Source of the DNA: an uncultured bacterium
Lineage (GTDB): Bacteria; Actinomycetota; Actinomycetes; S36-B12; CAIYMF01
Direction of reading: 5' to 3'
Assembly (NCBI GenBank): GCA_903927265.1
Contig: CAIYMF010000078.1
Coordinates: forward strand, 1-45,992
Length of the DNA: 45,992 nucleotides
Numbering within the stretch: the stretch's first letter is position 1; each line of letters opens with the position of its first letter. The notes beneath the pieces were generated by a model. The model was not told the origin of the DNA. It saw only the letters and a program-made list of their open reading frames with translations, and did not search any database. Position numbers and translations under genes: made by a program. Below, piece after piece: positions 14,352 to 36,491 of the stretch.

Positions 14352-14774
14352 ATGACCGCCATTCGCTGTGCCTCGGTGACCGACGCGCCTGTCTCCGTTG
14401 CGGAGATGGAGCGGTTGGTGGCCGATCGCTCGGCGGGTGCTGTGGTGAGTTTCTCTGGCGATGTGCGCGACCACGATCACGATCGACCGGTCGACCGCCT
14501 CGAGTACGAGGGGCATCCCACCGCTGCCCAGGTCATGGCCGATGTCGCGGCCGACATTGCGTCGCGCCACGAGGTTGTAGCGATTGCCGTCATGCACCGG
14601 GTGGGGCCCTTGGAGGTCGGCGACTCAGCGTTGGTTGCGGCGGTGAGTGCGGTGCATCGTTCGGAAGCCTTCGCGGCATGCGCGGCGCTCGTCGATGAGA
14701 CCAAGCATCGACTTCCGGTGTGGAAGCACCAGGTGTTCACGGATGGCACCGATGAGTGGGTGAACTGCGCGTGA
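14352..14774 (+). CDS. moaE: Molybdopterin synthase catalytic subunit
   Basis: Large subunit of molybdopterin synthase, which uses the MoaD thiocarboxylate to convert cyclic pyranopterin monophosphate into molybdopterin. The product is 140 aa, as expected. Family signatures are GAVVSFSGDVRDHDHDRPVDRLEYEGH, VVAIAVMHRVGPLEVGD, and the active-site region KHRLPVWKHQVFTDGTDEWV, which contains the catalytic lysines. The ATG follows a probable -10 by 6 nt and gives the normal N-terminus. It overlaps moaA by 4 nt. Its partner MoaD is encoded 2.3 kb away on the other strand. Confidence 0.93.
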   Translation: MTAIRCASVTDAPVSVAEMERLVADRSAGAVVSFSGDVRDHDHDRPVDRLEYEGHPTAAQVMADVAADIASRHEVVAIAVMHRVGPLEVGDSALVAAVSAVHRSEAFAACAALVDETKHRLPVWKHQVFTDGTDEWVNCA

Positions 14775-15781
14775 GTACGTTCTTGCCGCTTGCTGACACC
14801 TACGGCCGCGTGCACCGCGACCTACGCGTATCACTCACCGATCGCTGCAATCTGCGCTGCACGTATTGCATGCCTTCTGACTTCGCCGACTGGCTTCCTT
14901 CCGAGACGTTGTTGACGACCGACGAACTCATGCTTGTGATTGAGGTAGCGACGTCGCTCGGAATCACGGGCGTGCGATTGACGGGTGGCGAGCCCACGCT
15001 TCGACCCGACATCGTCGACATCGTACGACGCATCAACGAGTTGCCGGCGCGGCCTGAAATTAGTGTGACCACCAACGGCATTCGCCTGGTCGATCTGGCG
15101 CAGCCGCTGCGCGATGCCGGGCTCAAGCGGGTGAATGTCAGTCTCGACACTCTCGATCGTGATCGGTTCAAGGCGCTGACGTATCGCGATCGGTTCGACG
15201 ATGTGATCGCGGGGTTGCGCGCGGCGGTTGCCGCGGGCCTGACGCCAGTCAAGGTCAACGCGGTGCTGATGCGCGGCGTGAACGATGACGAAGCGATCAC
15301 GCTCGTGCAGCGGGCCATTGACGAGGGCTGGCGTTTGCGCTTCATCGAGCAGATGCCTCTTGATGCCGGTGGTCAATGGTCGCGCGGCGAAATGATCAAG
15401 GCCGACGAGATCTTCACGATGCTCAGTGAGAAGTGGACGCTCACGCCGGTTGCTTCGCGCGGGTCGGCGCCGGCCGAAGAGTTTTCGATCGATGGCAGTG
15501 ATGTCACCGTCGGCATCATCGCCAGCGTGAGCAAGCCGTTCTGTGCGGCGTGCGACCGGCTTCGACTGACGGCTGATGGCCAACTGCGCAACTGCTTGTT
15601 TGCTCGTGACGAACTTGATCTTCGGGTGGCGTTGCGCGATGAGTCGCTGTCGGAAGACGAACGTCGGGCCGAGGTTGAGCGTCGGCTGCGTTTGGTGGTG
15701 GCCGATAAGTTGCCCGGTCACGGCATTAACGACCCGAGCTTCATCCAGCCGGCTCGGCCGATGTCCGCCATCGGCGGCTAG
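14771..15781 (+). CDS. moaA: GTP 3',8-cyclase (molybdenum cofactor synthesis, radical SAM)
   Basis: Radical-SAM enzyme that starts molybdenum cofactor synthesis by converting GTP to 3',8-cyclo-7,8-dihydro-GTP. The product is 336 aa. The SAM cluster motif is C26-N-L-R-C30-T-Y-C33; the second, substrate-binding cluster is formed by the C-terminal CAACDRLRLTADGQLRNC; the protein ends in the essential Gly-Gly tail (SAIGG). The TGGEPTLRPD and NVSLDTLD motifs are also present. The GTG overlaps the moaE stop (GTGA), so the genes are coupled. A copy of the interspersed repeat begins 20 nt after the stop. Confidence 0.95.
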   Translation: MSTFLPLADTYGRVHRDLRVSLTDRCNLRCTYCMPSDFADWLPSETLLTTDELMLVIEVATSLGITGVRLTGGEPTLRPDIVDIVRRINELPARPEISVTTNGIRLVDLAQPLRDAGLKRVNVSLDTLDRDRFKALTYRDRFDDVIAGLRAAVAAGLTPVKVNAVLMRGVNDDEAITLVQRAIDEGWRLRFIEQMPLDAGGQWSRGEMIKADEIFTMLSEKWTLTPVASRGSAPAEEFSIDGSDVTVGIIASVSKPFCAACDRLRLTADGQLRNCLFARDELDLRVALRDESLSEDERRAEVERRLRLVVADKLPGHGINDPSFIQPARPMSAIGG

Positions 15782-15800
15782 CCACCTCCCTCCCCCCTTT

Positions 15801-15850
15801 TTCCGCATGGGGGGACACTCAGCACGCATAGGCGCAGTTTTGTTACCCCA
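15801..15850 (+). repeat. Interspersed ~50-bp repeat, copy A
   Basis: Forward copy. It reads TTCCGCATGGGGGGACA, then CTCAGCACGCATAG, then GCGCAGTTTT, a 4-nt spacer and CCCC. It lies just after moaA and, with inverted copy B, brackets the AbiEi/nuclease-like gene. Similarity with B continues outward into CCCCTTTTT on this side and AAAAGGGG on the other. Confidence 0.9.
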
Positions 15851-15911
15851 GCATTCGCAGTTGTCCACATGCTGCTCGCGGCCGTTCCCGGAATTGCGTC
15901 AGAGTGTGGCC

Positions 15912-16949
15912 ATGCCCACTCGATCTCGAAGTCACGACCTCTTGAATCAGGTCGCATCTGCCCAAGCCGGCCTTGTCACATCCGCGCAATTGGCGGAAAT
16001 CGGCGTGCGCACTTCCACTGTCTCGCGCCGATCGAGGATGGGCGGAATGTGGAATCGGGTTCTTCCGAGCGTGCACCTCGTGACAGGTGGGCAGCCAGAC
16101 CGTCTTCAACGTGAATTCGCGGCACAGTTGTACGCGGGCGCCTCGTCGGTTCTCACTGGAATTACGGCGCTCCGCCATTACGAGCCCAGACTGGCCCGCA
16201 CACTCTGGCTTCCCGACGATCGCTATGTCGTGGAATCAGTTCACGTACTCGTTGATCACTCGTGTCGCCGCGCCTCGGTCGCCTTCGTGGAAATCGAGCG
16301 AACACGGAGACTCCCTGAGCGTTCGGTCACCGAATTCCGTGACGGTTTGGTTCTCGCGCCACCCGCGCGAGCAGTCAGCGATGCCGCAAGGCGCATGCGG
16401 TCGGAATCGGATGTCCGTGAATTGGTCATCGCTTCTCTGCGGTTGGGGCTCGCCAACGCGTCTGATCTGACTCAGGAATTGAAACTCGGTCCGATTCGAG
16501 GACGTGCCTTCCTGCGTTCGGCTATTGAACACGCAGAAGTAGGAGTGTGGTCTCCGTCGGAAGGCGATTTGCGTGATCTCTTCACCGGATCTCAGCTTCC
16601 CGAACCGATGTGGAATCCGCGTTTGGTTGGACCGCGCGGCGAGTTCATTGCCATTCCCGACGCTTGGTTCGATGAGGTGGCGCTTGCTGTCGAGGTAGAC
16701 AGCCGCGAGCACCACAGTTCGGGCGACGGTTGGGAAAGAACACTGTCGCGGCAAGCACGTTATGCAGCGGCTGGGGTGCTGTGTATTCCGGTCACGCCTC
16801 GTCAGATTCGCGAGCAACCCGAGCGGACCTTGCTCTCGATAGAGGAAGCCTATGCAACGGCATTGGCGAGACCTCGTCCGCTCGTGCGGGCCGTTGTCGG
16901 GCAAACCCGAGCCGAGGGGCGGGTTACTCCTGTGTCCTGGGCCGGATGA
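15912..16949 (+). CDS. AbiEi-like wHTH protein with nuclease-like C-terminus
   Basis: A 345-residue protein of a type frequent in Actinomycetota. The N-terminus (HDLLNQVASAQAGLVTSAQLAEIGV, then RRSRMGGMWNRVLPSVHLV) resembles the winged helix of AbiEi-type antitoxins. The C-terminus (about 215-320) has a pattern like the Vsr/DUF559 restriction fold: Glu in WSPSEGDLRDLF, then IPDAWFDEVALAVEVDSREHH, compatible with a PD-(D/E)xK-like core, although a catalytic Lys is not obvious. No toxin partner (AbiEii) is adjacent. Its codon use looks less GC3-biased than moaA and coxL. It interrupts the moaE-moaA / moaD neighbourhood and is bracketed by inverted repeat copies A and B. A CAGAGT hexamer 6 nt before the ATG may be a leaderless -10. 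Function unknown. Confidence 0.7.
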   Translation: MPTRSRSHDLLNQVASAQAGLVTSAQLAEIGVRTSTVSRRSRMGGMWNRVLPSVHLVTGGQPDRLQREFAAQLYAGASSVLTGITALRHYEPRLARTLWLPDDRYVVESVHVLVDHSCRRASVAFVEIERTRRLPERSVTEFRDGLVLAPPARAVSDAARRMRSESDVRELVIASLRLGLANASDLTQELKLGPIRGRAFLRSAIEHAEVGVWSPSEGDLRDLFTGSQLPEPMWNPRLVGPRGEFIAIPDAWFDEVALAVEVDSREHHSSGDGWERTLSRQARYAAAGVLCIPVTPRQIREQPERTLLSIEEAYATALARPRPLVRAVVGQTRAEGRVTPVSWAG

Positions 16950-16950
16950 T

Positions 16951-16999
16951 GGGGTAGAAAAACTGCGTCTATGCGTGCCTCATGTCCCCCCATGCAGAA
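16951..16999 (-). repeat. Interspersed ~50-bp repeat, copy B
   Basis: Reverse-oriented copy, 2 nt after the AbiEi-like gene and downstream of moaD on the minus strand. Read on the minus strand it is GCATGGGGGGACA, the variant TGAGGCACGCATAG, then ACGCAGTTTTTCTACCCC. The CTCA of the other copies is TGAG here, making B the most divergent copy. Confidence 0.88.
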
Positions 17000-17030
17000 A
17001 AGGGGCGGGGCGGCGCGGGGCGGCGCGACG

Positions 17031-17282
17031 TTAGCCGCCGGCGAAGGGTGGCAGGACGTCGAGTCGACTTGCTGCCACGAGCGGCGCGCTGAGATCGCCA
17101 GCCTTCACCGACACTTCGTCGACCAAATACGAGCAGCGGGGAAGTACGTCGCTGAGGGCTGGAAACTCCGCGACTAACCGTTCAAGTACCTCACCGAGCG
17201 TGCCAGGTTCGGTCACCCAGTCCGAGCAACCTGCCGCGGCCCGGGCGGCGGCAAAAAGGTGCACTTCGACGGTTCCAGTCAT
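17031..17282 (-). CDS. moaD: Molybdopterin synthase sulfur carrier subunit
   Basis: A ubiquitin-like sulfur carrier of 83 aa. It ends in the diagnostic Gly-Gly (LPPFAGG) whose terminal carboxylate becomes the thiocarboxylate that donates sulfur in MoaE. Beta-grasp features include VEVHLFAAARAAAG near the start, LGEVLERLVAEFPAL in the middle and SRLDVLPPFAGG at the end. The ATG at 17282 lies 6 nt after TAGGCT, another leaderless arrangement. It stands alone on the minus strand between repeat copies B and C, apart from its partner moaE. Length is normal. Confidence 0.92.
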   Translation of the reverse strand: MTGTVEVHLFAAARAAAGCSDWVTEPGTLGEVLERLVAEFPALSDVLPRCSYLVDEVSVKAGDLSAPLVAASRLDVLPPFAGG

Positions 17283-17305: not shown

Positions 17306-17356
17306 GATGGGGGAGAAAAACTGCGCCTATGCGTGCTGAGTGTCCCCCCATGCGCA
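17306..17356 (-). repeat. Interspersed ~50-bp repeat, copy C
   Basis: Reverse-oriented copy between moaD and coxG. Its outer arms pair best of all copies: ATGGGGG at 17307-17313 is complementary to CCCCCAT at its other end, leaving a roughly 30-nt loop. The interior matches the consensus CTCAGCACGCATAGGCGCAG. Confidence 0.9.
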
Positions 17357-17461
17357 AATGTACGGTCAAGATGCGCGAGGTCGTAGAGGGGTCTAGTCTT
17401 TGCCCACACGTGACGTACGCCTCACGATGCCCTTCCCGCTACGCCTCGATTCGGAGAATCC

Positions 17462-18100
17462 ATGGAACTGCAGAACTCCTTCACCGTGCCCGCCGACATT
17501 GACACTGCGTGGCAGCAGTTGCTCGACGTCGAGAGCGTCGCACCCTGCATGCCCGGTGCCACCTTGGAATCGGTCGACGGCGACGACGTCACCGGCAACG
17601 TCAAGGTCAAGCTCGGCCCGGTGAGCATGTCGTACGCGGGCAAGGCCACCTTCATCAAGAAGGATGAGGAAACCCACACAGCGGTGCTCGAAGGCTCCGG
17701 CAAGGAAGCCAAGGGTGGCGGCACCGCGAAGGTGCTCGTGACCACCACACTCGTTGCCGAGGCCCCCGACCGCACCCGCGTCGACGTCACCACCGACCTC
17801 ACCATCACTGGAAAGGCCGCTCAGTTCGGCCGCGGCGTGATGCAGGATGTTGCCGGCCGCATCATCGACCAGTTCGCCGCCAACCTCGCCGCATCCATGA
17901 CTGCCCCGATCGCAGCCGCAACTGCCGCCGGAGCAACCGCCGATGGCGCACCGGCAGCTCCGCGTCCGGTTCAGGCCGCCGAAGCGATCGACCTCGGGGC
18001 GGTAGCCACCGCTCCTCTTCTCAAGCGTGCCATCCCGATCGTTATCGGCGTTGTGATCATCGCCGGAGTCATCTGGTGGGCCACTCACCGAGGCGAGTAG
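17462..18100 (+). CDS. coxG: CoxG-like membrane-anchored SRPBCC protein
   Basis: A 212-residue protein of the CO dehydrogenase subunit G family. The N-terminal SRPBCC/START-like domain (about 1-145) has FTVPADIDTAWQQLLDVESVAPCMPGATL and ends near QFGRGVMQDVAGRIIDQFAANL. An Ala-rich linker then leads to a single C-terminal membrane helix (AIPIVIGVVIIAGVIWWAT, about 187-205). In Oligotropha-type systems CoxG is implicated in recruiting CO dehydrogenase to the membrane. The ATG has GGAGA about 4 nt upstream. A TAGTCT hexamer at 17394-17399 could be its -10. It begins the cox gene series. Confidence 0.88.
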   Translation: MELQNSFTVPADIDTAWQQLLDVESVAPCMPGATLESVDGDDVTGNVKVKLGPVSMSYAGKATFIKKDEETHTAVLEGSGKEAKGGGTAKVLVTTTLVAEAPDRTRVDVTTDLTITGKAAQFGRGVMQDVAGRIIDQFAANLAASMTAPIAAATAAGATADGAPAAPRPVQAAEAIDLGAVATAPLLKRAIPIVIGVVIIAGVIWWATHRGE

Positions 18101-18159
18101 GGCCGACAAAACCCTTACGTCAAACCCCTACCTTTGGCCGCACATTGTCGCTAGCGTCA

Positions 18160-18173
18160 AGGACCTAGGTCCT
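18160..18173. promoter_or_regulatory. Perfect 14-bp palindrome upstream of coxM
   Basis: AGGACCTAGGTCCT is fully self-complementary and is followed directly by GTTCTGAAC, a second symmetric 9-mer. Both lie in the 134-bp gap between coxG and coxM, where a coxMSL promoter would be expected. A TTGTCG at 18145-18150 could be a -35. This is a candidate operator for an unknown regulator. Confidence 0.45.
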
Positions 18174-18234
18174 GTTCTGAACAATCCGCACATTTCACCC
18201 CAACCCCATCCCCACTCACATGGAAGGTGAGGGC

Positions 18235-19104
18235 ATGCAGACTCCCGCACCGGTCGGGTATGCCAAGGCAACGTCGGTTTCCGACGCCCTTGCCCTACTC
18301 AAGAAGCACGGCGAGGACTCCCGCATCGTTGCGGGCGGACACAGCCTGATCCCCATGATGCGCTTGCGCATCGCCGCCCCCGAGGCACTGATCGACATCA
18401 ATGATGTCGCCGAGCTCAAGGGAATCTCCATCGAAGGCAACGAGATCGTCATCGGCGCCATGGTGCGCCATGCCGAGGTGCTGTCCTCGCCGATCCTCGC
18501 CGAGCACTACGCGATCTTCCGTGAGGCTGAGAAGCTCATCGCCGACCCGATCGTCCGCAACCGCGGCACAATCGGCGGATCCATGTGCCAGGCCGACCCA
18601 TCGGAGGATCTCTCCGCAGTGGGCGCGGCGCTCAAGGGTTCCGTGGTGATTCAAAGCGCCTCCGGATCTCGCACTGTCGCCCTCCGGGACTTCCACGAGG
18701 GCCCGTACATGACCAAGGTCGCGCAGACCGAAATCCTCACCCAGGTACGCTTCCCGATTCGCCCCGGAGCAGGTAGCGCATACGAGAAGGTTGAGCGCCG
18801 CGTTGGCGACTGGCCCGTCGCGTCGGCTGGTACGTACGTGGTGGTCAGCAACGGCGTTGTTGCTGACTGCGGCATTGGACTGACCGCTGTTGGCGCCGAG
18901 CACTTCTGTGCACCCGAGGCCGAAGCCTTCCTCATCGGTAAAGAGCCGACGGAAGAAAACCTTTCGGCCGCGGCGCAGCTTGCAGCTGACGCCTGCAACC
19001 CGTTCTCCGACCAGCGAGGTCCGGCGGATTACAAGAAGCACCTTGCCCACGAACTCACGTTGCGGGCGCTTCGCCGTTCCGCTGCCGCAAGCCAGGGAGC
19101 CTGA
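18235..19104 (+). CDS. coxM: CO dehydrogenase FAD-binding subunit (form I)
   Basis: Medium subunit, 289 aa, which passes electrons from the FeS subunit through FAD to the quinone pool. Both FAD-binding motifs of the CoxM family are present: AGGHSLIPMMRLR near residue 33 and TIGGSMCQADPSED near 112. The C-terminal CO_deh_flav_C domain includes GIGLTAVGAEHFCAPEAE. I chose the ATG at 18235, which follows GGTGAGG, over an in-frame ATG 5 codons upstream. It is first in the M-S-L order typical of form I clusters. Confidence 0.94.
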   Translation: MQTPAPVGYAKATSVSDALALLKKHGEDSRIVAGGHSLIPMMRLRIAAPEALIDINDVAELKGISIEGNEIVIGAMVRHAEVLSSPILAEHYAIFREAEKLIADPIVRNRGTIGGSMCQADPSEDLSAVGAALKGSVVIQSASGSRTVALRDFHEGPYMTKVAQTEILTQVRFPIRPGAGSAYEKVERRVGDWPVASAGTYVVVSNGVVADCGIGLTAVGAEHFCAPEAEAFLIGKEPTEENLSAAAQLAADACNPFSDQRGPADYKKHLAHELTLRALRRSAAASQGA

Positions 19105-19106
19105 CA

Positions 19107-19586
19107 ATGCAGATCACGCTGACGGTTAACGGAACCGAATACACCCGCGATGTTGAGCCGCGCATGCTGCTCGTGCACTTTATTCGCGATGAACTTCTGC
19201 TGCGCGGCACGCACTGGGGATGTGACACGTCCAACTGTGGAACGTGCACGCTCTGGGTTGATGGTGAGCCCGTGAAGAGCTGCACGATGCTTGCGGTGAT
19301 GGCTGATGGTCGCGCAATTCGCACCGTCGAAGGCCTGGCCAATGGCGCCGAACTCGACCCCATCCAGCAGGGCTTCATCGAATGCCACGGATTGCAGTGC
19401 GGCTTCTGCACCCCCGGCATGATGATGACCGGCCGTTGGTTGCTCGACAACAACCCGAATCCCTCAGAAGGGGAAATTCGCGAATGCATCTCGGGTCAGA
19501 TCTGCCGTTGCACCGGATACAAGAACATCGTCTCAGCGATCCAGTGGGCCGCTGAGCACCCTGCGACCAGTGAGGTGACTTCATGA
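19107..19586 (+). CDS. coxS: CO dehydrogenase iron-sulfur subunit
   Basis: Small subunit, 159 aa, carrying two [2Fe-2S] clusters. The N-terminal plant-type cluster is in CDTSNCGTCTLWVDG plus a later Cys (VKSCTML). The C-terminal cluster is in CGFCTPGMMMTG and GQICRCTGYKNIVSAI. The order and spacing are typical for xanthine-oxidase-family small subunits. It starts 2 nt after the coxM stop, and its stop overlaps the coxL start by 4 nt (ATGA). Confidence 0.95.
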   Translation: MQITLTVNGTEYTRDVEPRMLLVHFIRDELLLRGTHWGCDTSNCGTCTLWVDGEPVKSCTMLAVMADGRAIRTVEGLANGAELDPIQQGFIECHGLQCGFCTPGMMMTGRWLLDNNPNPSEGEIRECISGQICRCTGYKNIVSAIQWAAEHPATSEVTS

Positions 19587-22030
19587 CCGCCGTTGAAGAG
19601 GTGCCGCTGAGCCCAGCGGGTAACCCCATCGGCTTTGGCTCGATGAAGCGCGTGGAAGATGCGCGTTTCGTTCGCGGTCAAGGTAACTACGTTGACGACG
19701 TGAACCTGCCCGGAATGCTGCACAGTGCGATTCTGCGCAGCCCGCACGCGCACGCGCGCATTGTGTCGATCGACAAGTCGGCCGCCGAAGCACTTCCCGG
19801 TGTCGTGCTCGTGATCACCGGCGAAATGCTCGCCGGTGTTCCGCGTCCGTCGCTGTTGGGTGACAACTTCGCCTGGATGCCCACGCTGTCCTACGACACG
19901 CAGGCAGTGCTGGCCACCGACAAGGTGCGTTTCCAGGGTCAGGAAGTCGCGTTCGTTATCGCCGAGAGCAAGTACATCGCTCGCGATGCACTCGAACTCA
20001 TCGACGTTGAATACGACGTTCTCGACGCCGTCATGGACGCCAAGAAGGCCATGGACCCCGACGCTCCCGTCATCCGTGACGACAAGGGTCAGACCGACAA
20101 CAGCATCACTGACGTTCACGGTAACCAGTCGTGGGAGTCGGGCAACGCGGAAGCGACTGCTGCTGCGATTGCCGCTGCTGAGGCCGACCCCAACTGTGTC
20201 GTCGTGACCGAGCAGATTCTCTACCCGCGCGTGCACCCGGCGCCCATGGAGACGTGTGGTTCGGTTGCCGAACTCAACCCGGTCACCGGTCAGCTCACGC
20301 TCTACACGACCAGCCAGGCACCGCATGCACACCGCACGGTGTACGCGATGGTCGCCGGTCTGCCCGAGCAGAAGATCCGCGTCATCAGCCCCGATATCGG
20401 TGGCGGTTTCGGCAACAAGGTCGGCGTGTACCCCGGCTACGTTCTCTCGATCGTCGGAAGTCTGCTGACCGGCAAGCCGGTGAAGTGGATGGAAGACCGC
20501 AGCGAGAACTTGATGTCGACGTCGTTCGCTCGCGACTACCACATGAAGGCAACCATCGCGGCGACCAAGGAAGGCAAGATCCTCGCGGTTGACGTTGACG
20601 TTCTCGCCGACCACGGTGCGTTCAACGGTGTGGCACAGCCGACCAACTACCCGGCCGGTTTCTTCCACATCTTCTCGGGTTCGTACGACTACCCGAACGC
20701 GCATTGCAAGGTCACGCCGGTGTACACCAACAAGGCACCCGGCGGCGTTGCATACGCATGTTCGTTCCGCATCACCGAAGCCGCGTACGTGATTGAGCGC
20801 GTCGTCGACTGCCTCGCGGCCGAACTGCAGATGGACCCGGCGGAGTTGCGGTTGAAGAACCTCATCGCTTCTGACAAGTTCCCCTACATGTCGCCCACTG
20901 GCTGGGAGTACGACTCGGGCGAGTACGAGAAGACGATGCGACTCGCCATGGAAATCGCTGGGTACGACGAACTGCGCCGCGAGCAGGCAGAGAAGCGTGC
21001 CAAGGGCGAGTACATGGGTATCGGCATCTCGTTCTTCACCGAAGGTGTGGGCGCCGGACCGCGCAAGACGATGGACATTCTCGGCCTTGGTATGGCCGAC
21101 GGTATTGAACTGCGCGTGCACCCCACGGGCAAGGCAGTGCTGCGTCTGTCGGTGCAGTCTCAGGGTCAGGCACATGAGACGACCTTCGCGCAGATTGTGA
21201 GCCACGAGCTCGGCATTCCGCCCGAGGACATCGACGTCGTGCACGGTGACACCGACCAGACTCCGTTCGGCCTCGGAACCTACGGTTCACGGTCGACTCC
21301 GGTGTCGGGTGCTGCCGCTTCTGTCGTCGCACGCAAGGTGCGCGAGCGGGCCAAGATCGTTGCTGCGGCAGCGCTTGAGTGCTCGCCCGATGACCTCGAG
21401 TGGGAACTAGGCCGCTGGTACGTGAAGGGTGACAAGGAGCGCGGCAAGACGATTCAGGAAATCGCTCTTCTCTCGCACAGTGCACTCGAACTGCCCGAAG
21501 GTATCGAGGGTCACCTCGACGCCACGGCCGTCTACAACCCGCCGAACCTCACCTACCCCTACGGCTGCTACATCTGCGTCGTTGACGTTGATGTGTTGAC
21601 CGGCCAGGTCAAGGTGCGTCGTTTCATCGCCGTCGACGACTGCGGTGTGCGCATCAACCCGATGATCGTCGAGGGCCAGGTTCACGGTGGCCTTGCTGAC
21701 GGAATCGGTATGGCGCTGATGGAACTCATCGCGTTCGATGAAGACGGAAACTGCCTCGGCGGTTCGTTCATGGACTACCTGTTGCCCACGGCAATGGAAT
21801 GCCCTGACTACGAACTCGGCGAGACCGTCACGCCGTCACCTCACCACCCGATTGGTGCCAAGGGTGTCGGCGAGTCGGCAACCGTGGGTTCCCCCGCGGC
21901 TGTGGTCAACGCTGTGATCGACGCGATCAGCCCGTTTGGAGTGCGTCACGCCGACATGCCGCTTACCCCGGCAAACGTGTGGCGTGCGGTTCAGGGCCGG
22001 CCGATGCGTACGGATATGGCCGTAGAGTAA
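19583..22030 (+). CDS. coxL: CO dehydrogenase large subunit, form I (Mo-Cu)
   Basis: Catalytic subunit, 815 aa, that oxidises CO to CO2 at a Mo-Cu centre with molybdopterin cytosine dinucleotide. The active-site loop reads AYACSFR (residues 390-396), matching the form I signature AYxCSFR with Cys392 as the copper ligand, not the form II motif AYRGAGR. The residue before Cys is Ala, where characterised enzymes often have Arg. Other family blocks are HPAPMETCGSVAELNP, SPDIGGGFGNKVGVYPGY and the C-terminal GAKGVGESATVGSPAAVVNAV, which contains the catalytic Glu. Length is normal. Codon use is strongly biased, suggesting high expression. A 582-codon open frame on the opposite strand is an artefact of that bias. 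Confidence 0.96.
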   Translation: MTAVEEVPLSPAGNPIGFGSMKRVEDARFVRGQGNYVDDVNLPGMLHSAILRSPHAHARIVSIDKSAAEALPGVVLVITGEMLAGVPRPSLLGDNFAWMPTLSYDTQAVLATDKVRFQGQEVAFVIAESKYIARDALELIDVEYDVLDAVMDAKKAMDPDAPVIRDDKGQTDNSITDVHGNQSWESGNAEATAAAIAAAEADPNCVVVTEQILYPRVHPAPMETCGSVAELNPVTGQLTLYTTSQAPHAHRTVYAMVAGLPEQKIRVISPDIGGGFGNKVGVYPGYVLSIVGSLLTGKPVKWMEDRSENLMSTSFARDYHMKATIAATKEGKILAVDVDVLADHGAFNGVAQPTNYPAGFFHIFSGSYDYPNAHCKVTPVYTNKAPGGVAYACSFRITEAAYVIERVVDCLAAELQMDPAELRLKNLIASDKFPYMSPTGWEYDSGEYEKTMRLAMEIAGYDELRREQAEKRAKGEYMGIGISFFTEGVGAGPRKTMDILGLGMADGIELRVHPTGKAVLRLSVQSQGQAHETTFAQIVSHELGIPPEDIDVVHGDTDQTPFGLGTYGSRSTPVSGAAASVVARKVRERAKIVAAAALECSPDDLEWELGRWYVKGDKERGKTIQEIALLSHSALELPEGIEGHLDATAVYNPPNLTYPYGCYICVVDVDVLTGQVKVRRFIAVDDCGVRINPMIVEGQVHGGLADGIGMALMELIAFDEDGNCLGGSFMDYLLPTAMECPDYELGETVTPSPHHPIGAKGVGESATVGSPAAVVNAVIDAISPFGVRHADMPLTPANVWRAVQGRPMRTDMAVE

Positions 22031-22034
22031 AACG

Positions 22035-23024
22035 ATGACCACTATGGCGCTGCACGAACGGGCCGAGGCGTTGAAGACGCGTCGAGTTCCGTTCGTGCAC
22101 GCCCGGGTGGTGCTCGCCGAACGCCCCACGTCAGCAAAGCCTGGCGATGAGGCGCTCGTACTTCCCGACGGAAGCATCGAGGGTTTCGTTGGCGGAACGT
22201 GCGCCGAATCAACTGTTCGGTTGCAAGGGTTGTCGCTGCTCGCATCAGGTGATTCCATGCTGTTGCGCATCGCACCCAATCCCGAAAGTGACCAACCCGG
22301 CAAGACTGTGGTGCACAACCCGTGCCTGTCGGGAGGCACCCTAGAAATCTTCCTTGAGCCGGTGTTGCCTTCCCCGCTTGTCGGAGTGCTCGGCGATACG
22401 CCGATGGCACAAGCAATGATTCGCATCGGCTCTGCGCTCGGCTACGAAGTGCGAGCTTTCGACGACATCGATGTGACGGTTGCCGATGTCGTGATTGTTG
22501 CGACGCATGGCAAGCGTGAGGAAGAAACTCTCACCGCCGCCGTTCGCGCTGGGGTTCCGTACATTGGCCTGATCGCGAGTCCCAAGCGCGGAAGCGCGGT
22601 TCTGGGATTCCTCGAACTCAGCGAAGATGAGAAGTCGCAGATTCACACGCCCGCTGGTTTGAACATTGGCGCACGAACGCCGAATGAGATTGCGCTGTCG
22701 GTGTTCGCGCAGGTGATTGAGAAGCGGACGTCGTCGACTCGTTCGCGGTCAATGGGTTCAGCTGAATCAACGGGCACGGCAGATGCTTCGGTCACTGCAT
22801 TCGCTGACGTTCCCTTCACATCCGCCGAGCCCGTTTCAACCTCAGTTACTTTTGAAGTCGCTGCGTCCGTCGTGCCCACTTCCATTGACCCTGTATGCGG
22901 TATGACGGTCTTCGAAGCAGCCGATGGATTGTTCGCCGACGTTGATGGTGAGCGCGTGTGGTTCTGCTGCCCGGGTTGCCGGCGCGAGTTCTTGAAGAAT
23001 CCCGGGAAGTACCCGCGGTCGTGA
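22035..23024 (+). CDS. coxF: CoxF-type XdhC-family protein fused to a YHS domain
   Basis: A 329-residue maturation protein for CO dehydrogenase. Residues 1 to about 230 form an XdhC/CoxI module: GSIEGFVGGTCAESTVRL and the Cys-containing NPCLSGGTLEIFLEP, then a Rossmann part with LVGVLGDTPMAQAMIRIG and IHTPAGLNIGARTPNEIALSVFAQV. A Ser/Thr-rich linker leads to a C-terminal YHS metal-binding domain (DPVCGMTVFEA, then WFCCPGCRREFLKNPGKY). YHS domains bind metals, so a copper or sulfur role in building the Mo-S-Cu centre is attractive but inferred. Starts 4 nt after coxL and overlaps coxD. Confidence 0.87.
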   Translation: MTTMALHERAEALKTRRVPFVHARVVLAERPTSAKPGDEALVLPDGSIEGFVGGTCAESTVRLQGLSLLASGDSMLLRIAPNPESDQPGKTVVHNPCLSGGTLEIFLEPVLPSPLVGVLGDTPMAQAMIRIGSALGYEVRAFDDIDVTVADVVIVATHGKREEETLTAAVRAGVPYIGLIASPKRGSAVLGFLELSEDEKSQIHTPAGLNIGARTPNEIALSVFAQVIEKRTSSTRSRSMGSAESTGTADASVTAFADVPFTSAEPVSTSVTFEVAASVVPTSIDPVCGMTVFEAADGLFADVDGERVWFCCPGCRREFLKNPGKYPRS

Positions 23025-23905
23025 GCGTCGCCGACCTCATTCCTGATACCGCCGCGCTCACCGAGCGACTTGCTGAGGCGGGCTATCTCGCTGACCCAGG
23101 TTTGGCTACGGCGCTCTTCTGCGCGGTTCGACTTCCGCAGCCGCTATTGCTCGAAGGTGAAGCGGGCGTCGGAAAGACGCAGGCTGCCAAGTCGCTTGCG
23201 ACGCTGCTCGACACTCCGTTGATTCGCCTGCAGTGCTTCGAAGGCATTGATGCCGCCGAAGCGCTGTATGAGTGGAACTATCCGCGGCAGTTGCTCGGTA
23301 TTCGTTTGGCCGAAGCACGTGGTTCTGACCTCGCTGAAGAATCGCTCTTCGGCCCCGGCTACTTGATTCGTCGTCCATTGCTTGCGGCTCTTGAACACCC
23401 AGGCCCGCGGCCTGCCGTGCTGCTCATCGATGAAGTCGATCGCGCCGACGAAGAGTTCGAGGCGTTCTTGTTTGAGTTACTCGCTGAGTCGTCGGTCACG
23501 ATTCCTGAGATCGGAACACTGCACGCCGAATACCCGCCGATCGTGATTCTCACCTCGAACCGCACACGCGATTTGCACGATGCGCTCAAGCGTCGTTGCC
23601 TGTACCACTGGATTGACTACCCGCCCCTTGCGCAGGCAACCGCCATCGTCGCGGCGCGCGTTCCGGAAGCTGACGCGGTGCTGGTCAATCAGATCGCGGT
23701 GGCAGTGCAGCGATTGCGTTCACTTGATGTGCAGAAGCCGCCGGGTGTCGCTGAGGCAATCGACTGGGTACACGCCGCGAAATTGATGGGGCTCGCGCGA
23801 CTGGATGAGTCGGGTGTCGAGTCGACGCTCGGTTCGGTGCTGAAGTACCGCGAAGACCACGACGTTGCTCGGGCGAAGGGATTCGCCTGGGTCGCTAATG
23901 GCTGA
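23021..23905 (+). CDS. coxD: CoxD, MoxR-type AAA+ ATPase
   Basis: A 294-residue AAA+ ATPase of the MoxR family, needed in Oligotropha to build the Cu-S-Mo site. It has Walker A GEAGVGKT (near 46-53), the sequence LQCFEGIDAAEALYEWNYPRQLL, Walker B VLLIDEVDRADEEFEAFLFELL, sensor 1 ILTSNRTRDLHDALKRRCLYHWIDYP and the C-terminal lid. The GTG at 23021 overlaps the coxF stop (GTGA), and the gene overlaps coxE by 8 nt. It would act together with the VWA protein CoxE, the usual MoxR-VWA pairing. Confidence 0.93.
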   Translation: MSVADLIPDTAALTERLAEAGYLADPGLATALFCAVRLPQPLLLEGEAGVGKTQAAKSLATLLDTPLIRLQCFEGIDAAEALYEWNYPRQLLGIRLAEARGSDLAEESLFGPGYLIRRPLLAALEHPGPRPAVLLIDEVDRADEEFEAFLFELLAESSVTIPEIGTLHAEYPPIVILTSNRTRDLHDALKRRCLYHWIDYPPLAQATAIVAARVPEADAVLVNQIAVAVQRLRSLDVQKPPGVAEAIDWVHAAKLMGLARLDESGVESTLGSVLKYREDHDVARAKGFAWVANG

Positions 23906-25214
23906 GGTATCTGCCGCGCCGGACATCCGGCTCTCGGAGGTCATCGCCGCCTTCGGTCACCTGCTGCATGCCGCCGGTGTTCCCGTGACTCCCGAACGCA
24001 GTGGGCGCTTCGCTGAAGTGGTCATGCTCGCGCAGCCACAGTCTCTCACCGAACTCGCTGCTCTGGGGCGAGTAACTCTGTTGAGCACTCACGATCAGAT
24101 TGAGATCTTCGATCGAGTCTTTGGCGAGGTGTTCCGCGGTTTGGTCGACATCACCGACTCGCGCGGTGATTCCAATAACCCAGCACCCGCGTCGGTGCTG
24201 CCGTCGGAGGAAAAGTCCGAGGGCGAAGGTGAGCGCGAAGGCAAGGAAGCCGAACAACCGCGCGGAACGAGTGGGCTTCCCGGCGAAGGTGATGGTGAGG
24301 GTGATGATGAAGTCGAGCAGGAGTCGGTGCTCGCCGCCGTCAGTGCCGAAGAACGTTTGGGGCACAAGGACTTTGCGGCTTGTACGCCCGATGAATTAGC
24401 GCTGTTGAATGCACTTGTTGAACGACTCGCTTTCGTTCCGCCTCCGCGTAAGGGAAGGCGTATGCGCCGTCATCACCGCGGCACTGCGCTTGATGTGCGA
24501 GCGACATTGCGCGAATCGCACCGCACGCAGGGCGATCCGGTGAACCGCATTTACCGCAAGTCGATGGAGCGCCCGCGACGCGTGGTGTTGATCGCTGATG
24601 TGTCAGGTTCGATGGAACCGTATGCGCGCGTGTATTTGCACCTCATGCGCGGCGCGGTGCGCGCGTTGCATTCCGAGGCGTTTGTGTTTGCCACGCGATT
24701 GACGCGTCTGACGCGACAGTTGAGTCACACACACCCCGACGTTGCCTATCGCAAGGCCGCTGAGGCGGCACCCGACTGGTCGGGCGGCACGCGCATTGGT
24801 TCGGCGCTCAAATCATTCATCGACGACTACGGGCGCCGAGGCATGGCGCGTGGAGCGGTGGTGGTGATCGTGTCAGATGGTTGGGAGATCGACGACCCGA
24901 CATTGGTGGGCGACATGATGCAGCAGTTGTCGCGCTTGGCCTTTCATATCGTGTGGGTCAATCCGCGCAAGGCGGCTCGTGACTACCGACCCGTCGTCGG
25001 TGGCATGGCGGCGGCAATGCCCTACGTCGACACGTTCGTGAGCGGGCACTCACTGCGGTCGTTGGAAGAAGTAATGCGCGCGATTCATTCAGTTGCTGAA
25101 GGTGGTCGACGACGTGCCGAGACGCGCCCGTTGCATCTGCCGCAGGCGGTTGCTGAGGCGGTTCCGGTCGGCGCCGAGGAACCGAAGCCTGCCTTCTGGG
25201 GACTAGGGCTCTAG
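23898..25214 (+). CDS. coxE: CoxE, VWA-domain maturation factor
   Basis: A 438-residue protein of the CoxE family, partner of the CoxD ATPase. The N-terminal half (about 1-190) is helical, with a highly charged Glu/Gly-rich linker. The C-terminal von Willebrand A domain has the MIDAS start LIADVSGSMEPYARVYLHL, the later WSGGTRIGSALKSFI and VVIVSDGWEIDDP. The ATG at 23898 lies inside the end of coxD and gives the normal family N-terminus. CoxD-CoxE are thought to remodel apo-CO dehydrogenase so that sulfur and copper can be inserted. moeA follows after 9 nt. Confidence 0.92.
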   Translation: MAEVSAAPDIRLSEVIAAFGHLLHAAGVPVTPERSGRFAEVVMLAQPQSLTELAALGRVTLLSTHDQIEIFDRVFGEVFRGLVDITDSRGDSNNPAPASVLPSEEKSEGEGEREGKEAEQPRGTSGLPGEGDGEGDDEVEQESVLAAVSAEERLGHKDFAACTPDELALLNALVERLAFVPPPRKGRRMRRHHRGTALDVRATLRESHRTQGDPVNRIYRKSMERPRRVVLIADVSGSMEPYARVYLHLMRGAVRALHSEAFVFATRLTRLTRQLSHTHPDVAYRKAAEAAPDWSGGTRIGSALKSFIDDYGRRGMARGAVVVIVSDGWEIDDPTLVGDMMQQLSRLAFHIVWVNPRKAARDYRPVVGGMAAAMPYVDTFVSGHSLRSLEEVMRAIHSVAEGGRRRAETRPLHLPQAVAEAVPVGAEEPKPAFWGLGL

Positions 25215-25223
25215 GGTCATGAC

Positions 25224-26450
25224 ATGAGAACGGTCGAAGAGCACCAGGCAATCGTGCTTGCGGGAGTAGAGCCGCTTGAGGTCATCGAGGTACCGCTACT
25301 CGAGGCCGTGGGGCAGGTTCTCGCGCGCGACGTGGTAGCGCCGTGGCCACTTCCGTCATTCGACAACAGCTCGATGGATGGTTACGCGGTAGTGGCCGCC
25401 GATCTTGCCGGTGCCTCTGTTGATGTGCCGGTGGTGTTGAACGTGTTGGGCGATATCGCTGCGGGTGGTGACTCGTCGGCCGTGATCGCTGCCGGTACTG
25501 CCGTGCGCATCATGACCGGTGCCCCGATGCCGGCAGGAGCCGATGCGGTGGTGCCGGTCGAGGCGACCGATGGTGGTGCTGAGCGTGTGACCTTTACCGC
25601 GCCAGTGTCGGAAGGCGCGTGCATTCGGCGGGCCGGTGAAGACGTCGTGGCAGGCGAGACGGTGGCGCGTGCGGGCGATGTGGTGAGTGAGCGCACGATT
25701 CCGGTGCTCGCATCAGTGGGACTCGGCGTGCTCCCGGTGCGCCGTCGCCCTCGGGTGATTGTGATTTCGACCGGTGACGAGTTGGTTGAGCCGGGTACGC
25801 CACTCACACACGGACTCATCAGCGATTCCAACGGATACATGCTCACAGCGTGCGCCACTGCGGCCGGTGCCGATGCGGTGCGCGCGCCGCGTGTGCGCGA
25901 TGATGCCGAGGCTTTCCGTGCGGCGTTGGATGCGGCGGCTGCGGAGGCCGACATCATCGTCACAAGCGGCGGGGTGAGTATGGGCGAGTACGACACGGTG
26001 AAGGCGGTGTTGCGCGCGAGTGGTGAGGTCGAATTCGCGAAGGTAGCGATGCACCCTGGCATGCCGCAGGGCAGCGGGCACGTGGGCGAGCGGCGGGTTC
26101 CGATCATCACACTTCCCGGAAATCCGGTCAGCTCCTTCATTTCTTTTGAGTTGTTCGTGCGGCCGGTGATTCGGCGCATGCTTGGTTTCGAGTCGTTGTT
26201 CCGTGCCACTGAGCCGGCGGTAGCGCTTGAGGAGTGGCATTCCAGCGTGGCGAAGGCGCAGTATGCGCGCGCGGTGCTTGAGGTAGGTGATGACGGGGTT
26301 CGTCGCGTGCGACCGGTGGGTGGTCAGGGCTCGCACATGATGGCGGGACTCGCTGAAGCGACTGCGTTGGTGGTTGTGCCCGTTGGTGCCGATCGCGTTG
26401 AGGCCGGGCAGACTGTCACCGTGATCGATCTGAATCGGGAGACTCCATGA
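25224..26450 (+). CDS. moeA: Molybdopterin molybdenumtransferase
   Basis: Inserts molybdate into adenylylated molybdopterin, releasing AMP. The product is 408 aa with the MoeA N-terminal block FDNSSMDGYAV, GAPMPAGADAVVPVE, the MoCF-binding region VISTGDELVEPG and VTSGGVSMGEYD, PGNPVSSF, and a C-terminal beta-barrel domain. It overlaps moaC by 4 nt and directly follows coxE on the same strand, so cofactor synthesis is probably co-expressed with the enzyme that consumes it. Confidence 0.94.
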   Translation: MRTVEEHQAIVLAGVEPLEVIEVPLLEAVGQVLARDVVAPWPLPSFDNSSMDGYAVVAADLAGASVDVPVVLNVLGDIAAGGDSSAVIAAGTAVRIMTGAPMPAGADAVVPVEATDGGAERVTFTAPVSEGACIRRAGEDVVAGETVARAGDVVSERTIPVLASVGLGVLPVRRRPRVIVISTGDELVEPGTPLTHGLISDSNGYMLTACATAAGADAVRAPRVRDDAEAFRAALDAAAAEADIIVTSGGVSMGEYDTVKAVLRASGEVEFAKVAMHPGMPQGSGHVGERRVPIITLPGNPVSSFISFELFVRPVIRRMLGFESLFRATEPAVALEEWHSSVAKAQYARAVLEVGDDGVRRVRPVGGQGSHMMAGLAEATALVVVPVGADRVEAGQTVTVIDLNRETP

Positions 26451-26932
26451 GCGAGAAGCAGTTCACGCATGTCGATGAGTCGGGTGCAGCGCGCATGGTT
26501 GACGTGAGCGGCAAGGAAATTTCCGTGCGCACAGCAACGGCATCAGGTCGCGTTGAGGTATCGGCCGAGGTGGTGGCGCTGTTGCGCGGGGCCGGTGTTC
26601 CGAAGGGTGATGCGCTGGCCGTTGCACGCATTGCTGGAATTCAGGCGGCCAAGCGCACGCCCGATCTCGTTCCGCTCTGTCATCCCATTGCGATTCATGG
26701 TGTTGAGATCGAGTTGGTCGTTCACGATGATCATGTGTCGATCCTGGCTGTGGTGCGCACTGCAGATCGCACCGGTGTTGAGATGGAAGCGCTCACTGTG
26801 GTTGCGGTCGCCGGGCTTGCGCTGATCGACATGGTGAAGGCCGTTGATCCGTCGGCAGTGATTACTGACGTGAAGGTGTTGGAGAAGACCGGTGGCAAGA
26901 CCGGTCACTGGACTCGACCCGCGGATCGTTGA
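26447..26932 (+). CDS. moaC: Cyclic pyranopterin monophosphate synthase
   Basis: Converts the MoaA product, 3',8-cyclo-7,8-dihydro-GTP, into cyclic pyranopterin monophosphate. The product is 161 aa with the conserved N-terminal FTHVDESGAARMVDVSGKE, the active-site region DLVPLCHPIAIHGVEIE, and TGVEMEALTVVAVAGLALIDMVKAVD followed by a late catalytic Lys region (VLEKTGGKTG). Start overlaps the moeA stop (ATGA). Length is normal. Confidence 0.95.
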   Translation: MSEKQFTHVDESGAARMVDVSGKEISVRTATASGRVEVSAEVVALLRGAGVPKGDALAVARIAGIQAAKRTPDLVPLCHPIAIHGVEIELVVHDDHVSILAVVRTADRTGVEMEALTVVAVAGLALIDMVKAVDPSAVITDVKVLEKTGGKTGHWTRPADR

Positions 26933-26933
26933 G

Positions 26934-27413
26934 ATGGCCGATTTCCGCGCGTTAGTGATCACGGTGTCGACGCGTGCTGCAGCGGGCGTGTGGGACGACC
27001 GTTCGGGGCCGATTCTGCGCGAGGGATTGGTGGCGCTCGGTCTTGAGGTTGAGGGCCCGGTCGTGGTGGCCGACGGTGACGCAGTGGAAGTGGCGTTGCG
27101 TGAAGGCGTGGCTGCGGGCTTCCACGCGATTGTGACGACGGGTGGCACAGGGCTCACGCCTACGGATCTGACTCCGGAAATGACTGCGCGCGTGGTCGAT
27201 CGCGCGATTCCGGGGATCGCCGAAGCGTTGCGTTCAGGTGGAGTGGCGGCAGGGGTTCCGACGGCGATCCTTTCGCGCGGTATTGCCGGAACTGCTGGGC
27301 AGACGTTGATCGTGAATCTGCCGGGTTCGCCGGGCGGTGTGCGCGACGGACTCGCGACGTTGGGGCCGATCCTTAAGCACGCACTTGAACAGATCCCCGG
27401 CTCCGACCACTAA
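26934..27413 (+). CDS. mog: Molybdopterin adenylyltransferase (MogA/MoaB type)
   Basis: Adenylylates molybdopterin before metal insertion by MoeA. The product is 159 aa with RALVITVSTRAAAGVWDDRSGPIL, the MPT-binding motif IVTTGGTGLTPTDLTPE, and NLPGSPGGVRDGL near the end. The ATG at 26934 begins 1 nt after the moaC stop. It closes the cox-moe-moa series and is followed by the inverted repeat pair D/E. MogA and MoaB names are used interchangeably for actinobacterial members. Confidence 0.93.
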   Translation: MADFRALVITVSTRAAAGVWDDRSGPILREGLVALGLEVEGPVVVADGDAVEVALREGVAAGFHAIVTTGGTGLTPTDLTPEMTARVVDRAIPGIAEALRSGGVAAGVPTAILSRGIAGTAGQTLIVNLPGSPGGVRDGLATLGPILKHALEQIPGSDH

Positions 27414-27459
27414 CCCACTTACCCCTGACCCCTGACCCCCTCTCTCTTTTCCGCTCTAT

Positions 27460-27510
27460 TTCCGCATGGGGGGACACTCAGCACGCATAGGCGCAGTTTT
27501 CAGTACACCC
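27460..27510 (+). repeat. Interspersed ~50-bp repeat, copy D
   Basis: Forward copy 47 nt after mog: TTCCGCATGGGGGGACA, CTCAGCACGCATAG, GCGCAGTTTT, then CAGTACACCC. The end is less C-rich than in the other copies. It forms an inverted pair with E. Confidence 0.9.
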
Positions 27511-27609
27511 ATTGAATTGGGTTGGGCTTGTGTCTCCTGTTAACGAAGGGGAGTCAGACAAGCGCGCACGTTGAATACGCCACGACAACCCCGCAATTGG
27601 CAACTCCTT
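27511..27609. other. 99-bp spacer between inverted repeats D and E
   Basis: No gene. The spacer is itself partly symmetric: AATTGGGTTG near the left end is matched by CAACCCCGCAATT near the right end, and GCTTGT(27528-27533 region) faces ACAAGC. The D-spacer-E unit of about 199 bp therefore looks like one long imperfect palindrome. Confidence 0.55.
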
Positions 27610-27658
27610 GGGGTAGAAAAACTGCCTCTATGCGTGCTGAGTGTCCCCCCATGCGGAA
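27610..27658 (-). repeat. Interspersed ~50-bp repeat, copy E
   Basis: Reverse-oriented copy 9 nt beyond the fhs stop. On the minus strand it reads TTCCGCATGGGGGGACA, CTCAGCACGCATAG, AGGCAGTTTTTCTACCCC, differing from the consensus at GCGC/AGGC. Confidence 0.9.
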
Positions 27659-27667
27659 GGCTGTTGG

Positions 27668-29335
27668 TTAGGCGAGGCCCACAATGCGTCCGTCGATCAC
27701 ATCGATCGTGAGTGACGCAGGTTTCGCGGGAAGCCCGGGCATCGTCATGATGTCGCCGCACACCATCACGATGAACTCGGCCCCAGCCGAGAGCCGCACC
27801 TCGCGAATCGCGATCGTGTGACCACTCGGCGCGCCACGAAGGGTCGCGTCGGTCGAGAATGACGACTGCGTCTTGGCAATGCATACCGGGAACGACCCGT
27901 AGCCCGAGGCTTCGAGTTCGGCGATACGCGTGAGAATCGCGGACGACGCGGAAACATCGGCCGCTCCGTAAACCCGGGTTGCAATCGCACGCACCTTGTC
28001 GAGCAGGCCCATCTCGTCGGGGTATACGAACTGCACCTCGGAAGGCGCCTCGCATACTTCGACAATCGCCTCCGCCAGTGTCACTGCCCCGGCCCCACCA
28101 TCGCCCCAGTGCGATGCAATGACTGCGCGCGCCCCGGTTTCTTCGACCAAGGTGCGAACGAGTTCAAGTTCAGCGTCGGTGTCGGCGCCGAACTTGTTAA
28201 TTCCAACAACCGTGCGAATTCCGTAGACCTCGCTGACATTGTGGATGTGTCGCTCGAGGTTCACGAATCCGGCGCGCACCGCGTCGAGGTTCTCAGTACC
28301 AAGTTCAGCAAGCGCAACGCCACCGTGGTACTTCAACGCTCGCACGGTCGAGACGATGACGGCAGCCGACGGACGCAACCCCGACTTGCGGCACTTAATA
28401 TCGACGAACTTCTCGGCACCAAGATCAGCGCCGAAGCCGGCCTCAGTGACGACGTAATCGGCCAACTTCATCGCCGACGTCGTGGCGATGACGGAGTTGC
28501 ACCCGTGTGCGATGTTCGCGAATGGTCCGCCGTGAACGAACGCGGGTGTTCCTTCGAGTGTCTGCACGAGGTTGGGGGCGAATGCATCACGCAACAGTGC
28601 CGTCATGGCGCCGTCAGCCTTCAGATCGCGCGCAGTCACTGCCACCTTGTCGCGCGTGTACCCGACAACGATGTTGCCGAGGCGACGCTTGAGGTCATCG
28701 AGTGACGTGGCGAGGCAGAAGATCGCCATCACTTCACTGGCCACGACAATGTCGAAGCCGTCTTCGCGCGGGTATCCGTTAGCTGGCCCACCAAGTGACA
28801 CCACGATGTCGCGCAATGCGCGGTCATTCATGTCGACAACGCGCTTCCACGTGATGCGGCGCACATCGATGCCGAGTTCATTGCCGTGATGAATGTGGTT
28901 GTCGAGCAAAGCCGCGAGCAGGTTGTTCGCCAGGCCGATTGCGCTGAAGTCGCCAGTGAAGTGCAGGTTGATGTCTTCCATCGGAACAACCTGCGCGTAC
29001 CCGCCGCCTGCGGCGCCACCCTTGATGCCGAAGACTGGGCCGAGTGAGGGCTCGCGCAAGCAGATCATCGCGTGCTTACCGATGCGACGCAGTCCGTCGC
29101 CGAGACCGACTGTTGTCGTGGTCTTACCTTCGCCCGCGGGCGTGGGACTGATCGCGGTGACGAGCACGAGGTGCCCACCCTCGCGCGGCGGAAGCGTGCT
29201 CAGGAAGTCCAGTGACACCTTTGCCTTGTAGTGGCCGTAGGGCTCAAGCGCTTCGTCCGGAATGGCGATGGTTTCGGCGATCTTCCCAATGCGCTGCAGT
29301 GTTGCGGCCTGGGCAATATCGATGTCACTAGGCAC
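27668..29335 (-). CDS. fhs: Formate--tetrahydrofolate ligase
   Basis: Interconverts formate plus ATP plus H4F with 10-formyl-H4F. The product is 555 aa, the normal length, with the P-loop [18 protein letters not shown] near residue 70, the family signature [27 protein letters not shown], and [17 protein letters not shown]. The GTG start lies 3 nt after the etfA stop, so it is the last gene of gntR-DMGDH-etfB-etfA-fhs. In a demethylating context it could run in the ATP-forming direction, releasing formate; this is inference. Confidence 0.96.
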
Positions 29336-34307: not shown

Positions 34308-34329
34308 TCTGCACACCAGTTGCACACAA

Positions 34330-34379
34330 TTCCGCATGGGGGGACACTCAGCACGCATAGACGCAGTTTTCCTGCCCCA
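34330..34379 (+). repeat. Interspersed ~50-bp repeat, copy F
   Basis: Forward solo copy between divergent gntR and the glyoxalase-like gene: TTCCGCATGGGGGGACA, CTCAGCACGCATAG, ACGCAGTTTT, CCTG, CCCC. It sits upstream of coding sequence on both sides, unlike copies A, B, D and E, which follow genes. Confidence 0.9.
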
Positions 34380-36444: not shown

Positions 36445-36491
36445 GGTGGGGCGCCGGAACGCGCTAGGTGCGCGCTGGGGTGCCCCCGATG

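Follow-up and report, generated by a model that had tools for sequence, protein, structure and literature searches.

The window, the whole stretch of 45,992 nt that was analysed, carries a single gene enclosed by two inverted repeats between moaA and a moaD-like gene, together with further copies of the same repeat (family 1) and one repeat of a second family. The features are as follows.

14756-15781, forward strand: moaA, the left neighbour, which adjoins moaD or coxG in related genera
15792-15857, reverse strand: family-1 repeat copy A, left arm, with its tip (TGGGG) toward the gene; profile match 15798-15850
15912-16949, forward strand: gene for a 345-aa protein with an AbiEi-type winged helix and a PD-(D/E)XK (DUF559/MTES_1575-like) domain; motif PDAWFDEVALAVEVDSREHH
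16943-17008, forward strand: family-1 repeat copy B, right arm, tip toward the gene; profile match 16950-17002
17031-17282, reverse strand: moaD-like gene, the right neighbour, convergent to moaA
17303-17361, forward strand: third copy of family 1, located between moaD and coxG; DNA match, with profile match 17308-17359
27458-27506, reverse strand: family-1 copy that forms the left half of a tip-facing doublet; DNA match and profile
27609-27659, forward strand: family-1 copy, right half of this doublet after a spacer of about 0.1 kb; DNA match and profile
34328-34379, reverse strand: single family-1 copy; DNA match and profile
36447-36488, forward strand: family-2 repeat (TGGGGCGCC...GCGCTAGG...GGGTGCCCCC)

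The two arms are inverted, 66 nt long, 82% complementary and 1085 nt apart, which confirms the bracketing of one gene that was described in the first-pass annotation. The similarity reported there beyond the repeat core, into CCCCTTTTT on one side and AAAAGGGG on the other, is real and forms part of the 66-nt arms. By DNA match, six family-1 copies lie within the window. Read from the tip, the unit consists of TGGGGTAAGAAAACTGCGTCTATGCGTGCTGAATGTCCCCCCATGCGGAAA followed by a G-rich tail, the length of which varies between this genome (G000) and that of the sister species, a Lac Pavin Actinobacteria MAG (G001) and the sole relative from the same genus. At loci of both genomes such G-rich tandem tails, polymorphic in length, separate the repeat from the adjacent gene, e.g., as GGGGTTA repeats at G001 C10:193855.

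Downstream of moaA, at a distance of 26-83 bp, related genomes of the family have convergent moaD and then coxG, or else coxG, and the AbiEi-type gene is absent. The relatives thus hold an empty moaA-moaD site, and the neighbourhood is indeed split by the unit, as had been proposed. Because the gap in related genera is so short, the gene and its repeats most likely entered the site together, in the ancestor of both sister species, each of which carries the unit of ~1.25 kb. The CoxG-like gene and the genes downstream of it (window 17462-28000) resemble a CO-dehydrogenase-type cluster beside the moa genes.

The AbiEi-like helix and restriction-fold C-terminus that had been read from the sequence were recovered weakly by Pfam (AbiEi_4, E=0.01; MTES_1575 REase, E=0.028), clearly by the PADLOC AbiEi models, which match the winged-helix N-terminus (1e-11), and in the paralogues, six of which lie above the gathering score for DUF559; the window's own protein falls below this family cut-off. 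The acidic motif D..ExD..H is conserved across the homologues (alignment A2), where E261 is invariant and D250, D263 and H268 are nearly so, and a family profile compared with the PDB gave weak matches, mainly to restriction-type nucleases. The fold is PD-(D/E)XK-like, neither DDE nor HUH. PF01797, the HUH/Y1 transposase domain, has no match in the protein, and a search with it across the whole genome found no Y1 (HUH) transposase or RAYT, so that a RAYT acting in trans was rejected. An AlphaFold model built from two sequences was discarded at a pLDDT of 34. No AbiEii toxin adjoins the gene, the neighbours being moaA and moaD.

The orthologue in the sister species is 98% identical, and paralogues within this genome share 39% identity or less. 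With a third-position GC of 0.60, compared to 0.68-0.80 in the neighbouring genes, the less biased codon use ascribed to the gene was correct. A phage origin was rejected, as neither phage records nor viral contigs contained a homologue of the protein and no copy of the family-1 repeat was found in the viral contigs.

By sequence profile, family 1 has about 59 copies here and 53 in the sister species; run on 15 other genomes of the family, the profile found none. A pattern search with up to 3 mismatches gave 45 copies in this genome, and the backwards-read control pattern gave none. The repeats are mainly intergenic, most copies are mutually 85% identical or more, and they occur as singlets and as tip-facing doublets without an AbiEi-type gene. 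When two copies are neighbours within 3.5 kb, their tips face each other in 12 of 13 cases here (P=6e-7) and in 7 of 8 in the sister species (P=4e-4). The family-2 repeat is located 60-85 bp from several family-1 copies, thereby forming tip-facing mixed doublets, and in the sister species it lies directly beside another AbiEi homologue, the second one (G001 contig C24). Hairpin folding is strong for family 2 and for the repeats of most lineages; for family 1 there is no convincing hairpin. A reading of the repeat as a riboswitch or RNA family was rejected, since Rfam gave no match and covariation is absent.

Several other genes were seen inside tip-facing family-1 pairs in both species, namely a class I fumarase-like gene (L070 1-1900 in G000 C126; L257, G001 C5:259600-261405) and the genes for a 224-aa protein and an S51-like peptidase (L061, L063; L117, L124). 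Two contigs of this genome (C227 1-3629 and C55 1-1250; L065, L060) have the outer flank and the first repeat in common and then continue differently, which suggests that the MAG combines several strains or that the region is rearranged.

Repeat searches around homologues in several genomes revealed different inverted repeats in each. To score bracketing, the 700 bp on each side of a gene were compared with each other in either orientation and the best local match was taken, with a score of 45 or more as the line. The first-pass annotation had named repeats scattered independently of the gene family, or an unflanked gene in all relatives, as arguments against its proposal. Neither was found: 22 of the 24 motif-intact homologues are bracketed by lineage-specific repeats of their own, compared to 18 among the 541 control genes (p=3e-26; the control count is the raw 19/542 after removal of the Rhodococcus homologue). 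The association of the gene family with repeats is therefore well supported.

A flank window of 300 bp missed L243, L247 and L250, which were recovered with 700 bp and the direct orientation, and the controls were scored likewise. Motif-intact L131 and L242 fall below 45 and have weaker arms. Two motif-less homologues, in which ELAAPD replaces EVDSREHH, score 23-28 and have no bracketing repeats; as they are orthologues, they count as one evolutionary event. The 24 homologues are likewise not independent, because many of them sit at shared gene neighbourhoods. The more similar two proteins are, the more similar their repeats tend to be (Mantel r=0.69, p=5e-5), and since several homologues share neighbourhoods this may reflect joint inheritance. 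Tip-facing family-1 pairs enclose other genes too, so that bracketing alone is not unique to the AbiEi gene, and uniqueness was ruled out. Among ordinary genes, a few have strongly matching flanks with scores of 87-343 (L273 18093-19427 in G003, L179 12363-13112, L297, L306, L325), including an MFS transporter and a polysaccharide deacetylase.

The same arrangement was found in named records. Homologues from a plasmid database are bracketed in Rhodococcus ruber (this one is also counted among the 24), in Arthrobacter (three) and in Tsukamurella (one), mostly by near-perfect palindromes within 0-130 bp of the gene. No bracketing repeats were found around a Nonomuraea DUF559 protein that is apparently shortened at the N-terminus.

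A search of this and related genomes for repeat copies, as the annotation had advised, showed that the tested repeats have further copies in their own genomes. In G008, which belongs to another genus, a 390-kb sample contains 7 further type-a copies, including tip-facing doublets 0.1-0.3 kb apart, and also a type-b doublet. Extra copies were likewise present in G009, G010 and G013, and the repeats of three further paralogues in this genome have them too. R. ruber has 6 palindromic units in 74 kb, and the named records hold 11 (StoSoilB13), 20 (T. tyrosinosolvens) and 17 (Arthrobacter ERGS1:01) repeat places, where palindromes may count twice.

Nearly all family-1 sites are common to both sister species, with flanks mostly 84-95% identical, and thus little recent movement is seen. 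Alignable flanks at these shared sites often enclose a different repeat variant or a different tail, and the repeats are conserved far better than their own flanks. One copy in G001 (C23:97346), which has a C-rich tail of its own, apparently sits within what is left of the copy that G000 has at C275. G001 also shows a deletion of about 3 kb that ends exactly at the inner tip of a repeat and spares only the final codons of a dehydrogenase gene, and further differences between the species are likewise located beside repeats; the direction of such repeat changes is in part our interpretation. For a lone repeat, neither a clean empty site nor the target duplication that had been suggested as a check was found; in the comparison for target duplications the outgroup sites were too diverged and low-complexity tails occupied the edges.

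The analogy with REP elements and their RAYT partners, drawn in the first-pass annotation, is supported by the recurrent bracketing, the extra repeat copies, the empty moaA-moaD site and the same arrangement in named homologues outside the family. We consider it probable that the locus represents a REP/RAYT-like partnership of repeat and enzyme, in which the enzyme is a PD-(D/E)XK nuclease with an AbiEi-like winged helix. This reading is favoured because bracketing recurs family-wide with lineage-specific repeats that have further genomic copies, is absent where the nuclease motif is lost, and involves repeats whose similarity tracks that of the proteins, and because neighbouring family-1 copies face each other with their tips, orthologous repeats change while their flanks persist, the deletion stops at an inner tip and no Y1 (HUH) transposase was found in the genome. 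It is weakened by the lack of a convincing hairpin in family 1, unlike the repeats of most other lineages, and by the sharing of sites between the two species without a clean empty site or target duplication. The non-independence of the 24 homologues, the low scores of L131 and L242, the single event behind the motif-less pair and the unrelated genes inside tip-facing pairs also count against it.

An ordinary insertion sequence, in which the gene would encode a transposase, the arms would be its terminal inverted repeats and the scattered copies would be the corresponding MITEs, is unlikely. A single gene between inverted repeats, inserted as one unit between moaA and moaD, would fit such an element, and the gene-less doublets resemble MITEs. 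However, near-identical copies of the gene are absent: the paralogues are at most 39% identical, whereas most repeats reach 85% or more. Moreover, the genes are often found at shared neighbourhoods, no target duplication was seen, and the fold is PD-(D/E)XK-like rather than DDE or HUH.

Quite unlikely is also a role of the protein as a regulator or DNA-organising factor, for which the repeats would be selected binding sites with autoregulatory copies around its own gene. AbiEi antitoxins bind repeats in their own promoter, the protein carries an AbiEi-like helix, and the strong conservation of the repeats relative to their flanks would agree with selected sites. Against this, repeats occur at both ends of the gene, even just past the stop codon, bracketing is gone where the nuclease motif is lost, and the geometry of the doublets resembles REPINs. 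A reading of the repeats as passive RNA elements, of the terminator or REP type, which collect in intergenic gaps and bracket the gene incidentally is very improbable and already largely refuted by the flank test (22/24 versus 18/541, p=3e-26), for although they are intergenic and 18 of the 541 other genes have similar flanks, the hairpins have no adjoining T-run typical of terminators and bracketing held for the named homologues outside the family.

In the favoured partnership of repeat and nuclease, the gene for the protein is enclosed by an inverted pair of the repeat that belongs to it, and the nuclease is predicted to act on the repeats. The winged helix would recognise the cognate repeat, and the nuclease would cut at or beside its inner tip, on the TGGGG side. 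Repair could then copy or rewrite the repeats and sometimes delete DNA beside the tip. The doublets would be non-autonomous and depend on the protein for mobilisation in trans, in the way proposed for REPINs and RAYTs.

HUH RAYTs are one well-known class of dedicated enzyme for REP-like repeats. In REPtrons and TIRtrons, REP or TIR repeats are combined with RAYT/TIRYT tyrosine (HUH) transposases (Di Nocera et al., 2013, PMC3733652; REPINs, PMC3116915). Like these, the system described here has a gene inside inverted repeats, multi-copy repeats that are often inverted dimers, and a separate gene for each of several repeat types, and some of the TIRs hold a GGGG-containing motif as well (GGGGWSAS; PMC3733652). 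In contrast, an AbiEi-type helix and a PD-(D/E)XK nuclease replace the HUH/Y1 transposase, and the host belongs to the Actinomycetota, which are unmentioned in PMC3733652. The protein therefore shares with RAYTs the flanking by an associated repeat but not the HUH/Y1 domain, and the repeats share with REPINs the many copies, the mainly intergenic location and the inverted doublets; hairpins are strong for family 2 and most lineages and absent for family 1. For CGTC-tagged REPs a dedicated transposase was not found (PMC3733652); they are palindromic, dimeric and multi-copy like the repeats here, and some of the palindromes here contain CGTC (L253, L254, L256).

With the AbiEi antitoxin of type IV AbiE the protein has the winged-helix N-terminus in common, but with a nuclease domain added and the AbiEii toxin missing beside the gene it does not form an AbiE toxin-antitoxin unit. 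Caulobacter VsrA (DUF559/Vsr-like) has the same DUF559-type PD-(D/E)XK fold; the passages on this enzyme in PMC12907096 propose a role in mismatch repair and describe no repeat partnership. In the limited literature collection that was searched, nothing on point linked DUF559 or AbiEi to repeats of this kind, in line with the earlier remark that no such pairing was known.

More broadly, the large actinobacterial AbiEi/DUF559-type family may consist of nucleases dedicated to palindromic repeats throughout the genome, which they would create, copy or rewrite. They would then represent a second, independent solution to the role of RAYTs, and CGTC-type REPs may also have their missing partner among them; for this wider proposal we see the chances as evenly balanced. 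The pairing with a PD-(D/E)XK protein offers a candidate enzyme for the repeats and a candidate function for proteins annotated as "AbiEi antitoxin domain" or DUF559, a family that is itself poorly understood. Such genes in defence catalogues may thus not be parts of toxin-antitoxin systems, and the finding suggests that a second, unrelated type of enzyme stands behind REP-like mobile repeats.
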